A program made the position numbers and the translations under genes. Positions 58,621-64,000 of a DNA stretch of 64,000 nucleotides are shown one piece after another. Under the pieces are notes generated by a model. That model was not told the DNA's origin, did not search any database, and worked only from the letters and a program-made list of their open reading frames with translations. The DNA comes from Candidatus Saccharibacteria bacterium oral taxon 488. GTDB lineage: Bacteria > Patescibacteriota > Saccharimonadia > Saccharimonadales > Saccharimonadaceae. The stretch spans positions 62,001 through 126,000 of the forward strand of contig CP040001.1 of the NCBI GenBank assembly GCA_013100825.1, read 5' to 3'. Every line of letters begins with the position of its first letter. Position 1 is the stretch's first letter.

Positions 58621-58696
58621 GCCGCTGTAGCTCAGTTGGTAGAGCGGCGCTTTCGTAAAGCGTAGGTCACCGGTTCGAATCCGGTCAGCGGCTCCA
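58621..58696 (+). tRNA. tRNA-Thr (anticodon CGT)
   Basis: Acceptor GCCGCTG / CAGCGGC, D arm GCTC AGTTGGTA GAGC, anticodon stem GCGCT/AGCGT with CGT in the loop, T arm with GGTTCGAATCC, discriminator T and encoded CCA. It reads ACG. The U73 discriminator is the partner of the A in the TGGA bulge of the thrS T-box. Confidence 0.95.
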
Positions 58697-61355: not shown

Positions 61356-61366
61356 GACTATTGTCA

Positions 61367-61395
61367 ATAATAGCAGGAATTAGTGGTGAATGCAA
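61367..61395 (-). promoter_or_regulatory. Promoter for tRNA-Val (TTGCAT - 17 - TATTAT)
   Basis: On the minus strand TTGCAT (61390-61395) and TATTAT (61367-61372) are 17 nt apart, with TGC before the -10. Confidence 0.7.
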
Positions 61396-61399
61396 TTAC

Positions 61400-61516
61400 C
61401 TCTTGCGGAGAGCGTAGGGGTTGGCCGTCATGTCGTTTCTTGGTGTAGTATTACGGATCCGCTACCTAGTCCATGCGTCGTAAGGGTTGCCCGGAACTTT
61501 TAACTATGATACGGTG
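61400..61516. other. Unassigned spacer between tRNA-Val promoter and thrS T-box
   Basis: No gene was found. A TATGAT at 61505-61510 could be the -10 of the thrS leader, but no good -35 box is spaced from it. GGGTTGCCC and other short inverted repeats occur, so the T-box leader may begin earlier than assumed. Confidence 0.4.
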
Positions 61517-61693
61517 AGAATAGCAAGGACAGAGACTAACCACCTCTCGAGCAACGTGAAAGCGGTTGCGGCGCACGAAACCAGCCGGAGCAAGAGTCAT
61601 CGCCAAGGTGGAACCTCCTGGCTCGTCCCCAGGACCGAGGCACGCACGCTATACGCGTTGGGCGTGCTTTTATAATTACTTAAAGGAGGTTTT
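61517..61693 (+). promoter_or_regulatory. T-box riboswitch controlling thrS
   Basis: A tRNA-sensing leader. Visible in order: a short stem AGAG/CTCT whose loop (61535-61543) holds the Thr codon ACC as specifier; stem GCAAC/GTTGC (61551-61569); stem GGCG/CGCC (61570-61604); the T-box core AAGGTGGAACC (61605-61615), with bulge TGGA (61609-61612) to pair with the UCCA end of tRNA-Thr; the hallmark TCGTCCC; and a terminator hairpin. AACCTCCT (61612-61619) is exactly complementary to the thrS Shine-Dalgarno AGGAGGTT (61684-61691), as in actinobacterial translational T-boxes. The 5' end and stem I shape are inferred. Confidence 0.85.
61640..61672 (+). terminator. Hairpin with T run in the thrS leader
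   Basis: GCACGC (61640-61645) pairs with GCGTGC (61662-61667), with inner ACGC/GCGT and a TGG bulge, followed by TTTTAT. It lies between the T-box core and the Shine-Dalgarno site. Confidence 0.7.
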
Positions 61694-63505
61694 ATGAGCG
61701 AAGATAAACTCTATGCAATGCGACACAGCCTGGCGCATATTATGGCGGCGGCTGTGCAGCGGGTATGGCCAGACGCCAAGTTTGGAGTTGGTCCGGTTAT
61801 TGAACATGGGTTTTATTACGATATTGATCTTGGTGAAACGAAGATCAGTGAGCAGCAGTTTAATAAAATTGAAAAGGTAATGCGACGAATCATTGCCGAA
61901 AAGCAAGACTTTGTGTGCACAAAATGCCCAATTGATGAAGCAATTCAATGGGCCAAAGATAGCCATCAGCCATATAAAGAAGAACTTCTTAATGACCTAA
62001 AACGTGCCGGGACAACGGTAGCAAAAGATCTGGACGCTGCAGAAATGGGTACAATTGCCGAAGGTGATAGCGCGCTCGATGAAGTTTCGTTTTATACCAA
62101 CGGGTCGTTTAAGGATCTGTGTCGTGGACCGCATGCTGTAAATACCAGTCAGGTTGGTGCATTTAAGTTGATGCGGGTTGCGGGCGCCTATTGGCGGGGC
62201 AATGAAAAGAATCCTCAAATGCAGCGACTATACGGTGTAGCTTTTGCTACGCAGGAAGAGCTGGATAAATATTTGGAGAAATTAGAGCTGGCCAAACAGC
62301 GTGATCACCGCAAGTTAGGCAAGGAGCTTGATCTGTATACCACCTCGCCGCTCGTGGGGGTTGGTTTGCCATTATTTACACCTCGTGGAACTATCTTGCG
62401 CGATACCGTGGCCCAATACTCAAATCAGCTGCGTCAGAGGTTTGGTTTTGAAAAAGTCTGGACGCCGCATATTACCAAAAAGGATTTGTATGAAACGTCA
62501 GGCCACTGGGCCAAATTTGGCGAAGAGCTGTTTTTGGTTAAAAGCCAGGAAACCAGTGATGAAATGGCGTTAAAGCCGATGAACTGCCCGCACCATACGC
62601 AGATTTTTGCTTCACAACCTCGTAGCTACCGCGATATGCCGGTGCGCTATTTAGAGACAACCACTGATTATCGTGACGAGAAAACCGGTGAGCTTGGCGG
62701 TCTGAATCGTGTGCGCTCGCTGACCCAGGATGACAGCCATGTCTTTTGTCGCCCAGACCAAATTGAACAAGAAATCAATAATTTATTGTCTGCTGCCCAG
62801 GAACTGTACGGTACTATTGATATGAAGCTGCGGGTTCGGCTCAGTTACCGTGATGACTCTGATGCATACTTGGGTGAACGTGAATTGTGGGCTTCTGCAC
62901 AAAATCAGTTGAAATCAGCAGTTGAAAAAGTTGGCTTGGACTATTTTGAGCAGGAAGGTGAGGCTGCTTTTTACGGACCAAAAATTGATTTCATGGCAAC
63001 TGACGCTATCGGTCGTGAGCACCAAGTCGCGACAGTGCAGCTAGACTTCGTGCAGCCGCAACGGTTTGGTTTGGAATACACAGATAGTGATGGTAATTTT
63101 ACAACACCTGTGATGATTCACTGTGCGCTGCTCGGGTCGATTGAACGATTCTTGAGCGTCTTCATTGAACACACGGGTGGTTGGTTCCCGTTTTGGGCGG
63201 CGCCAGAACAAGTACGTATTCTAACGATTAATGACACCGTCTCAGACTACGTTGATGAAATTACATCGATTTTATCAGAGGTGACCTTAATGAAACCAAT
63301 AAAATACAACGATGTAAGATTTACAATAGATAGTCGTAATGAATCCCTTGGGAAAAAGATTCGTGAGGCGACTGTTGTAAAAATACCAATACAGATTATT
63401 GTTGGGCCAAAGGATCAGATAGCACGTGTCGTAAGTATCAGGACGCATGCGGGTGAAGAGCAAATTCCGCTTGAACAGCTAGCTGAATATATACGGGGAC
63501 TGTAA
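61694..63505 (+). CDS. thrS: Threonyl-tRNA synthetase without TGS domain
   Basis: Charges tRNA-Thr and edits Ser-tRNA-Thr. The 603-residue protein starts directly at the N2 editing domain (MRHSLAHIMAAAV with HxxxH, DLCRGPH with Cys and His), so the N1 TGS domain is absent. The class II catalytic core has MNCPHH (zinc Cys), RVRSLTQDDSHVF, and a motif 3 region reading MIHCALLGSIERFLSVFIEH, where the usual IHR is IHC. The anticodon-binding domain closes the protein (VRILTINDTVSDYVDEI). AAAGGAGGTTTT before the ATG is the site masked by the T-box. Confidence 0.97.
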   Translation: MSEDKLYAMRHSLAHIMAAAVQRVWPDAKFGVGPVIEHGFYYDIDLGETKISEQQFNKIEKVMRRIIAEKQDFVCTKCPIDEAIQWAKDSHQPYKEELLNDLKRAGTTVAKDLDAAEMGTIAEGDSALDEVSFYTNGSFKDLCRGPHAVNTSQVGAFKLMRVAGAYWRGNEKNPQMQRLYGVAFATQEELDKYLEKLELAKQRDHRKLGKELDLYTTSPLVGVGLPLFTPRGTILRDTVAQYSNQLRQRFGFEKVWTPHITKKDLYETSGHWAKFGEELFLVKSQETSDEMALKPMNCPHHTQIFASQPRSYRDMPVRYLETTTDYRDEKTGELGGLNRVRSLTQDDSHVFCRPDQIEQEINNLLSAAQELYGTIDMKLRVRLSYRDDSDAYLGERELWASAQNQLKSAVEKVGLDYFEQEGEAAFYGPKIDFMATDAIGREHQVATVQLDFVQPQRFGLEYTDSDGNFTTPVMIHCALLGSIERFLSVFIEHTGGWFPFWAAPEQVRILTINDTVSDYVDEITSILSEVTLMKPIKYNDVRFTIDSRNESLGKKIREATVVKIPIQIIVGPKDQIARVVSIRTHAGEEQIPLEQLAEYIRGL

Positions 63506-63509
63506 TCTT

Positions 63510-64000
63510 GTGCGTAGGCTAAGAATTGCAATTGATATTGACGATGTTTTAGCAGAAAACGCAATCGGGTTCGTGGCATTTAGTAATGAACGGTGGGGCA
63601 CACGATTGAGGGTTGATGACTATAGCGAACATTGGTCAGAGATGTGGCATGTTGATAGCGAGGAGGCAGAACGGCGTGCTCATGTCTTTCACGACTCTGG
63701 TGCGATAAAGGGATATGCTCATATAGGGGGGGGCGGAGGAGGTGCTTAGAAACATGTCGCAGGTGCATCATCTCATGGTGGCTACTTCGCGTCGCTTGCA
63801 GGTGCAAAGCGATACACTGCTTTGGATCGAGGAGCATTTTCCAGGGGTTTTCGCCAGTTCTGCGGTCTACTTCTCTGGCCTATGGGATACGGTGCACGAG
63901 GACTCTCATAAACTGACAAAAACAGAGTTAATCACGCAAATTAATGCTGATGTTTTAATTGATGATCAGTTGAAACACTGTTTAGCTGTTTCCGAGACTG
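63510..64000 (+). pseudogene. HAD-family 5'(3')-deoxyribonucleotidase-like gene, frameshifted, 3' end outside window
   Basis: The GTG-started frame begins RRLRIAIDIDDVLAEN, the DxD motif I of HAD phosphatases in the NT5C-like group, and continues to GAIKGYAHI. At a G8 run (63726-63733) the frame slips: with seven Gs it would continue EEVLRNMSQVHHLMVATSRR (motif II) and reach DVLIDDQLKHC (motif IV) near the window end. As written it stops at 63749 after a poly-Gly stretch. It starts 4 nt after thrS and may be co-transcribed. It would dephosphorylate nucleotides or a related phosphate ester. Confidence 0.75.

Follow-up and report, generated by a model that had tools for sequence, protein, structure and literature searches.

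The threonyl-tRNA synthetase gene thrS of this Saccharibacteria genome is almost certainly controlled by a threonine-specific T-box riboswitch, which would act by transcription attenuation. The gene lies in the window, by which we mean the whole analysed stretch of 64,000 nucleotides. An earlier note on this DNA had proposed such a T-box in front of thrS, and the proposal is borne out by a match to a covariance model built with the window excluded, by the recurrence of the layout in relatives, by covariation and by the behaviour of the Rfam T-box family RF00230 on those relatives. Sequence and covariation document the parts of the leader and how well these are conserved, show that codon, bulge base and discriminator agree with each other and with the gene, and reveal that helix A1 overlaps the terminator. 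The data place tRNA-sensing riboswitches, with codon and discriminator agreeing for four amino acids, in the Patescibacteria, which are reduced, largely uncultivated organisms whose regulation is little known, and they bear on the age or the spread of T-boxes.

T-boxes sense uncharged tRNA. They are listed for Firmicutes, Actinobacteria, Chloroflexi, Deinococcus/Thermus and Proteobacteria in Table 3 of PMC2494555, and TBDB is presented in PMC7778990. Combining T-box with Saccharibacteria, Patescibacteria, Candidate Phyla Radiation or Parcubacteria in searches of the open-licence PMC literature, a body apart from subscription papers and preprints, returned no paper, in line with the note, to which no described Saccharibacteria example was known. 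The available text of PMC11665869 and PMC4508563, which combine riboswitch and Saccharibacteria, does not contain the term T-box.

Results and Discussion

The gene thrS (61694–63505, + strand, ATG at 61694) encodes a protein of 603 aa that matches TIGR00418 with 603.9 bits at a cut-off of 383.65. Its leader spans 61523–61671, and all elements described in the following are on the + strand. Stem I (61523–61552) starts with the C-stem GC/GC (61523–61524 with 61551–61552), continues with a K-turn, in which a bulge (61525–61527) is followed by GA 61528–61529 opposite GA 61549–61550, and ends with the NC stem AGAG/CTCT (61531–61534 with 61544–61547) and a 9-nt apical loop (61535–61543). Inside this loop lies the specifier codon ACC (61539–61541), followed by A61542, exactly the threonine codon in an upstream stem-loop that had been claimed before. 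An H-type pseudoknot of the IIA/B kind follows (61555–61591), with P1 formed by CGTG 61555–61558 and CACG 61574–61577 and P2 by 61562–61563/61590–61591 and 61569–61572/61584–61587. The purine string AAGAG (61592–61596), which fits RRRxG, stands 5′ of the discriminator, the window copy having this string only and no stem III.

The antiterminator (61602–61641) consists of A1 (61602–61604/61639–61641 and 61607–61608/61635–61636), which reads GCC..GG / CC..GGC, and of A2 (61616–61621/61629–61634). Between them sits the T-box bulge TGGAACC (61609–61615), whose A61612 would face the tRNA discriminator U73; by direct reading, AAGGTGGAACC occupies 61605–61615. The earlier note had taken TCGTCCC (61623–61629) as the 3′ strand of the T-box, which does not hold: 61622–61628 form the loop of A2, only the last C (61629) is paired, and the string is not conserved, the loop of relative L001 having ATGA. 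The intrinsic terminator (61637–61671) takes 61637–61641 of the A1 strand into its stem and ends in a U tract (61668–61671) within a short U run, UUUUAU. What the note's "normal order" of stems does not bring out is that Stem I is ultrashort, that the codon is apical and that a Stem II with S-turn is absent. The Shine-Dalgarno sequence AAAGGAGG plus TT of thrS, read from the sequence, covers 61682–61691. Just 5′ of Stem I we find the −10-like hexamer TATGAT (61505–61510), whose position suggests a transcription start near Stem I. Of 40 leaders, 39 have a hexamer with 5–6 of 6 matches to TATAAT no further than 26 nt 5′ of Stem I (L018, the exception, scores 4/6), compared with 67 of 399 control windows taken further upstream.

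A contig search with the ThrS protein gave 131 relatives, and the best 80 were kept, mostly Saccharibacteria, Saccharimonadia or Patescibacteria, with L001 being 87% identical. The motif GGTGGNACC, with N left free, was found no more than 600 nt upstream of the ThrS match in 40 of the best 80 relatives and in the window. All 41 leaders carry the bulge TGGAACC, although N was free in the search. The covariance model R2, built from 26 Saccharibacteria thrS leaders (group A below) with the window excluded, adds L015 and brings the layout to 41 of the best 80 thrS loci; 26 of these 41 are the training set of R2, but the motif alone had identified 40 of them beforehand. More importantly, R2 matches the window with 49.0 bits (E 9.4e-11 over 64 kb). 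The model R1, to whose training set the window belongs, gives 102.9 bits. In the class, which we take to be Saccharimonadia in the phylum Patescibacteria (the class of G003 in GTDB), R2 matches 90 of 195 genomes at E<=0.05, four of them (G031, G034, G058, G060) owing to an ileS leader, and R1 matches 140 of 392 at E<=0.001, with the downstream gene checked for returned loci only. The other 39 of the best 80 thrS loci, among them L057–L080, several from animal gut samples, have no match. Three of the 39 (L031, L053, L055) come almost without upstream sequence and L041 starts inside the gene; the remaining ones look like true absences or losses.

TM7i (L012) is a relative with a complete genome on record, in which a LOOT RNA (RF03000; L012:4012–4138) lies between tRNA-Val and the thrS leader. 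A small ORF stands between T-box and thrS in L006 (2630–3025), L038 (4567–5004) and L029; the L006 ORF was tested and belongs to no named family.

For the analysis of covariation the leaders were aligned as two sub-groups, A with 26 leaders and B with 15 including the window. From 5′ to 3′ they share the order of C-stem, K-turn (3-nt bulge and GA/GA, with the 3′ GA altered in L005), 4-bp stem and 9-nt loop, which is NNUAACCAN in most leaders. Stem I is followed by a strand, mostly CGU, pairing into the H-type pseudoknot, by an AAG-type purine stretch, and then by helix A1, UGGAACC, helix A2 and the terminator. Helix A1 is mostly GUC-CGG/CCG-A-GAC in group A and GCC-AA-GG/CC-GA-GGC in group B. 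In group A 91.4% of 676 cells are paired, 104 cells are changed on both sides and 18 of 26 pairs have such changes; the values for group B are 89.9% of 378 cells, 35 cells and 15 of 26 pairs. None of 500 shuffles reached the values of either group, and sliding the partners by 1–3 columns left only 24–44% paired; kinship among the leaders can inflate the shuffle control, the slid-partner control less so. As judged from these alignments most leader helices covary, which is the outcome that the note had proposed to look for among related thrS leaders.

The individual helices behave as follows. The C-stem is paired in 100% of cells and the NC stem in 98.1% (A) and 100% (B), and all eight Stem I pairs of group A have changes on both sides. 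P1 of the pseudoknot reaches 93.6% (A) and 90.0% (B), again with both-side changes. Inner P2 aligns badly (57.7% in A, 55.0% in B) and outer P2 reaches 86.7% in group B, so that we claim no covariation for P2. In group B, A1 and A2 are paired in 100% and 98.6% of cells with both-side changes in two and three pairs, respectively. The RRRxG–stem III–AA consensus is taken from PMC7583486; stem III is plain in six of the 26 group A leaders (L005, L008, L024, L026, L030, L045). The base 3′ of the specifier is a purine in 41 of 41 leaders (A in 35, G in 6). A single-sequence fold of the window leader is not better than that of shuffles (z-score −0.46), and in the predicted fold the specifier loop and the bulge pair with each other, so that Stem I does not form.

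Next to the structure, codon, bulge base and tRNA discriminator can be compared. A first hairpin scan forced ACC, ACT or ACG into the loop and gives no evidence on the codon, so that we used a scan in which the codon was open and the hairpin geometries were set after inspecting the leaders. Of the 67 thrS leaders left after removal of duplicates, 58 gave the K-turn hairpin with 9-nt loop in this codon-free scan, which missed nine partly by anchoring on an earlier TGG and returned the specifier triplets ACC (42), ACG (5) and ACT (4), all others occurring at most four times each. In the same class, 26 of 36 ileS leaders have a hairpin with a 7-nt loop, with ATC in 23, and the aspS leaders have GAC in a 6-nt loop (3/3). 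Synthetases were labelled IleS or AspS by BLAST, with L146 and L148 as the respective single references: L146, which the locus end truncates, scores best with the ileS family (483 bits at a cut-off of 621), and L148 lies above the cut-off for aspartate–tRNA(Asn) ligase. A generic finder for K-turn hairpins was dropped, as it picked tRNA T-loops and other hairpins.

After removal of 22 duplicate rows the bulge is TGGA in all 67 thrS leaders (including TGGAACC in L042 and TGGAACA in L138), TGGT in 34 of 36 ileS leaders and TGGC in all three aspS leaders. The group "other" of this count holds L134 and L135 (cut thrS), L123 (cut ileS), L159, L162 and L167. In L159 the leader (1994–2188, − strand) has a TGGG bulge and a K-turn hairpin with the loop ATTCACGAC, which holds CAC, and it precedes hisG (1267–1956, − strand; above the family cut-off). 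Apparently, a histidine-pathway gene is here under the control of tRNA-His in a reduced genome. The N is U in the RF00230 consensus and A in the R2 training set, which biases the searches slightly; even so, with RF00230 on its own, U, C and G were all recovered in the bulge 5′ of different genes.

On the tRNA side, U73 is found in 36 of 36 tRNA-Thr(CGU) and G73 in 29 of 29 tRNA-Asp from the best 80 of 131 loci and the window. TM7i and GWC2_44_17 have U73 in tRNA-Thr, A73 in tRNA-Ile, G73 in tRNA-Asp and C73 in tRNA-His, the hisG genome has C73 in tRNA-His and U73 in tRNA-Thr (30 of its 37 tRNAs examined), and in each of three genomes all three Thr tRNAs carry U73. The earlier note had placed a tRNA-Thr with U73 and anticodon GGT upstream of thrS. 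The gene (58621–58696, + strand) and its U73 are there, and U73 fits the A of all 41 bulges, as the note had reasoned; its anticodon is, however, CGU, which reads ACG. A tRNA-Thr(GGU), also with U73, is present in three relatives but was not found in the window. No more than about 5 kb separate the tRNA-Thr(CGT) gene from thrS in the window and in 35 of the best 80 of 131 relatives. Taken together, codon, bulge and discriminator agree as ACC/ACG/ACU–UGGA–U73 for thrS, AUC–UGGU–A73 for ileS with two exceptions of 36, GAC–UGGC–G73 for aspS (three loci) and CAC–UGGG–C73 for hisG (one locus). The two ileS exceptions, L093 and L166, have UGGA though tRNA-Ile there has A73.

The same agreement bears on the idea that ThrRS binds its own leader. 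In the E. coli thrS operator ThrRS recognizes the leader as a tRNA mimic, and translation is blocked. The thrS leader described here also has a small 5′ hairpin, but its loop holds the codon (ACC/ACG/ACU) and not an anticodon, and the design is common to ileS, aspS and hisG, each with its own codon and bulge base. We therefore regard a ThrRS-binding mimic as very improbable and keep to the T-box.

The ileS T-boxes (AUC, UGGU), which occur in many Saccharimonadia genomes, are L119, L121, L125–L129, L139, L142–L147 and L149–L158, and further ones are L160, L161, L163–L166, L168–L173 and L093. Between T-box and ileS there is a tag-like gene in L093 and an unnamed ORF in L145, L151, L154 and L155. 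L140, L141 and L148 have T-boxes with GAC loop and UGGC 5′ of a synthetase of the aspartate–tRNA(Asn) ligase kind. A UGGG T-box is also seen in L167 (949–1638), 5′ of a D-Ala-D-Ala dipeptidase-like protein (below the curated cut-off).

For the attenuation of thrS we propose the following sequence of events, in which the binding of tRNA, the recognition of its charging state and the direction in which the gene is regulated would follow established T-box knowledge. The short Stem I would present its ACC to the tRNA-Thr(GGU) anticodon. When this tRNA is uncharged, its 3′ UCCA would pair with the bulge UGGA and hold the A1/A2 antiterminator, and RNA polymerase would read through into thrS. With charged tRNA-Thr the amino acid would block the contact with the bulge, the 3′ strand of A1 would join the terminator, and transcription would stop. 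A stem with a U-run is present by script rule in 39 of 41 leaders, and in 38 of the 39 leaders that were scored the 3′ strand of A1 gives up 3–5 of its 7 bases to the terminator stem. This scoring left out L051 and the window, neither of which has a U-run by the rule; the window was folded separately, and five bases are taken there. L026, a fragment that ends early, scored 0. For the window the terminator form is calculated at −29.3 kcal/mol and the forced antiterminator at −25.2 kcal/mol, a cost of 4.1 kcal/mol, and in these folds antiterminator and terminator are mutually exclusive. The overlap together with this cost points to a default OFF state that would be overturned by uncharged tRNA, the standard T-box logic according to PMC7583486.

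A terminator 5′ of thrS would also be expected for attenuation by a leader peptide with threonine codons, and a frame of 62 codons with TTG start (61487–61675) does contain eight threonines. These are scattered, however, and do not form a run, and what is conserved and covaries are RNA helices, so that we give this explanation next to no weight compared with the T-box.

More serious is the possibility of a purely translational T-box, in which the charging state would govern access to the ribosome-binding site and the hairpin would be no working terminator. In the window AACCTCCT in the bulge and A2 (61612–61619) is the exact complement of AGGAGGTT (61684–61691) in the ribosome-binding site of thrS. 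Around the start of thrS, 7 of the 15 group B leaders have a complement of at least 6 nt, compared with 15 of 210 control windows placed within the gene; of 20 further group B leaders 18 are thrS-adjacent, and 9 of these have one. Predicted folds form this pairing in the window, L023, L025, L027, L028 and L051, and translational T-boxes typically have a short Stem I (PMC7583486). In group A, however, only 2 of 26 leaders have 6 nt or more, neither at the ribosome-binding site (controls 36 of 364), the L012 fold lacks the pairing and L001 forms it only weakly. Moreover, the frequency of the U-run stem and of its overlap with A1 given above speaks for termination, the short U run of the window notwithstanding. 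We thus consider an exclusively translational mode unlikely and favour transcription attenuation. The complementarity perhaps provides a second, translational lock in the window and some relatives. GGAGGTT stands 5′ of thrS in six loci, compared with a single one of the 48 other RBS-like contexts in these loci, though many of the 48 are probably not real. The second lock stays conjectural because these six loci are related and were chosen for the complement, and because a Shine-Dalgarno sequence is always partly complementary to CCUCC.

The Rfam search that the note had proposed as a check gave a divided answer. At gathering scores the whole window returns three tRNAs only and no T-box, and the region around the window copy (61356–61720) gives no T-box even at E<=10; relatives do match RF00230, below its cut-off. 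The gathering threshold was reached neither by the window nor by 12 relatives nor by 147 class genomes, 47 of which match below the cut-off at E<=1, a level at which 6 of 14 named control genomes, one archaeon among them, match as well. At E<=0.01 at least 131 of 379 genomes of the phylum match (five candidates were scored per genome, which makes this a lower bound), 13 of them above the cut-off, with 5 of 14 controls. Given these 13, automatic annotation may already label some. Matches in the class were confirmed 5′ of thrS in L103, L111 and L105, and those in G125 and G122 coincide with R2 matches. In runs among all 4227 Rfam families, RF00230 aligns its model positions 1–219 to three thrS leaders (E 3.6e-5, 7e-5 and 2.3e-4), and in eight loci no family other than T-box and tRNA reaches E<=0.01; these loci were chosen for an earlier sub-threshold match, and their match rate does not inform on frequency. 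With RF00230 the thrS leader shares the K-turn, the specifier, a pseudoknot with a CGU (F-box-like) strand, the 7-nt bulge UGGNACC, A1/A2 and the terminator. It differs in A1, which in the window includes a 2x2 internal loop where the model has GGG/CCC, and in score, the relatives reaching 34–45 bits at a cut-off of 93 and the window copy going undetected. A gathering threshold is operational in nature and is not itself a structural feature.

In Bacillota, thrS T-boxes have a long Stem I with IDTM, the module that binds the tRNA elbow, plus Stem II. They share gene and amino acid with the leader described here (PMC2494555, PMC12452182) and are often tandem (PMC12452182). A Stem I that presents the codon of the regulated amino acid is obligate in T-boxes according to PMC7583486, and the thrS leaders have this codon-bearing 5′ Stem I as well as the 7-nt UGGNACC bulge between A1 and A2, which marks the essential discriminator domain. 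What they lack are the auxiliary elements. The tip of Stem I is a 9-nt loop over 4–5 bp, which leaves no long Stem I with IDTM, and the S-turn strand [GU]UAGA is found in 2 of 56 thrS leaders with placed hairpin, compared with 21 of 23 for ileS and 3 of 3 for aspS. A looser two-strand test gives 2/67, 27/36 and 3/3, respectively. Additionally, Stem I and bulge are separated by a median of 62 nt in thrS (53–87) and 107 nt in ileS. By these features the ileS and aspS leaders of the class look like class III, while in the thrS leaders Stem II was either lost or never present; an internal loop in P2 might take the place of the S-turn. The "C rule" of specifiers is tied to the S-turn in PMC7583486; among 51 Thr specifiers nine have G or U as their last base, as expected if this constraint is gone.

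At least four T-box classes are distinguished in PMC10482949, binding being augmented by IDTM, by the Stem II S-turn or by both. Class III, exemplified there by Nocardia farcinica ileS, resembles the thrS leader in its short Stem I without IDTM, apical-loop specifier, K-turn and pseudoknot, but it requires the S-turn Stem II, has a loop of 5–6 instead of 9 nt and is mostly translational, whereas the thrS leader has an intrinsic terminator. Class II (B. subtilis glyQS) is likewise transcriptional and without S-turn Stem II, but it is glycine-specific, its Stem I is long and bears an IDTM, and its linker is single-stranded, where the thrS leader has a pseudoknot and a Stem I that is short. With no elbow-binding tip on Stem I, and with the S-turn missing from 54 of 56 leaders, the thrS leader fits none of the four classes as given there. 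Judged by its architecture, it is a new T-box variant, without IDTM or Stem II S-turn and with an intrinsic terminator. Such a natural minimal T-box would stand against the rule of augmented binding just cited and against the general need of transcriptional T-boxes for a long Stem I, as stated in PMC7583486. A further step, possible but in our view rather doubtful, would be a fifth, terminating class, which relies on codon–anticodon and acceptor-end pairing only, without touching the elbow and without an S-turn, and whose bulge, in the clade of the window, doubles as anti-Shine-Dalgarno, a single tRNA 3′ end thus freeing both the terminator and the ribosome-binding site.

Larger Stem I regions are seen by eye in L174–L203, higher-scoring RF00230 T-boxes from other Patescibacteria, with thrS (L175) and ileS (L194) as the genes identified 3′ of them. 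In the window itself, a run of eight G (63726–63733) lies in a reading frame 3′ of thrS, which then seems interrupted; it is either a sequencing error or a slippage site.
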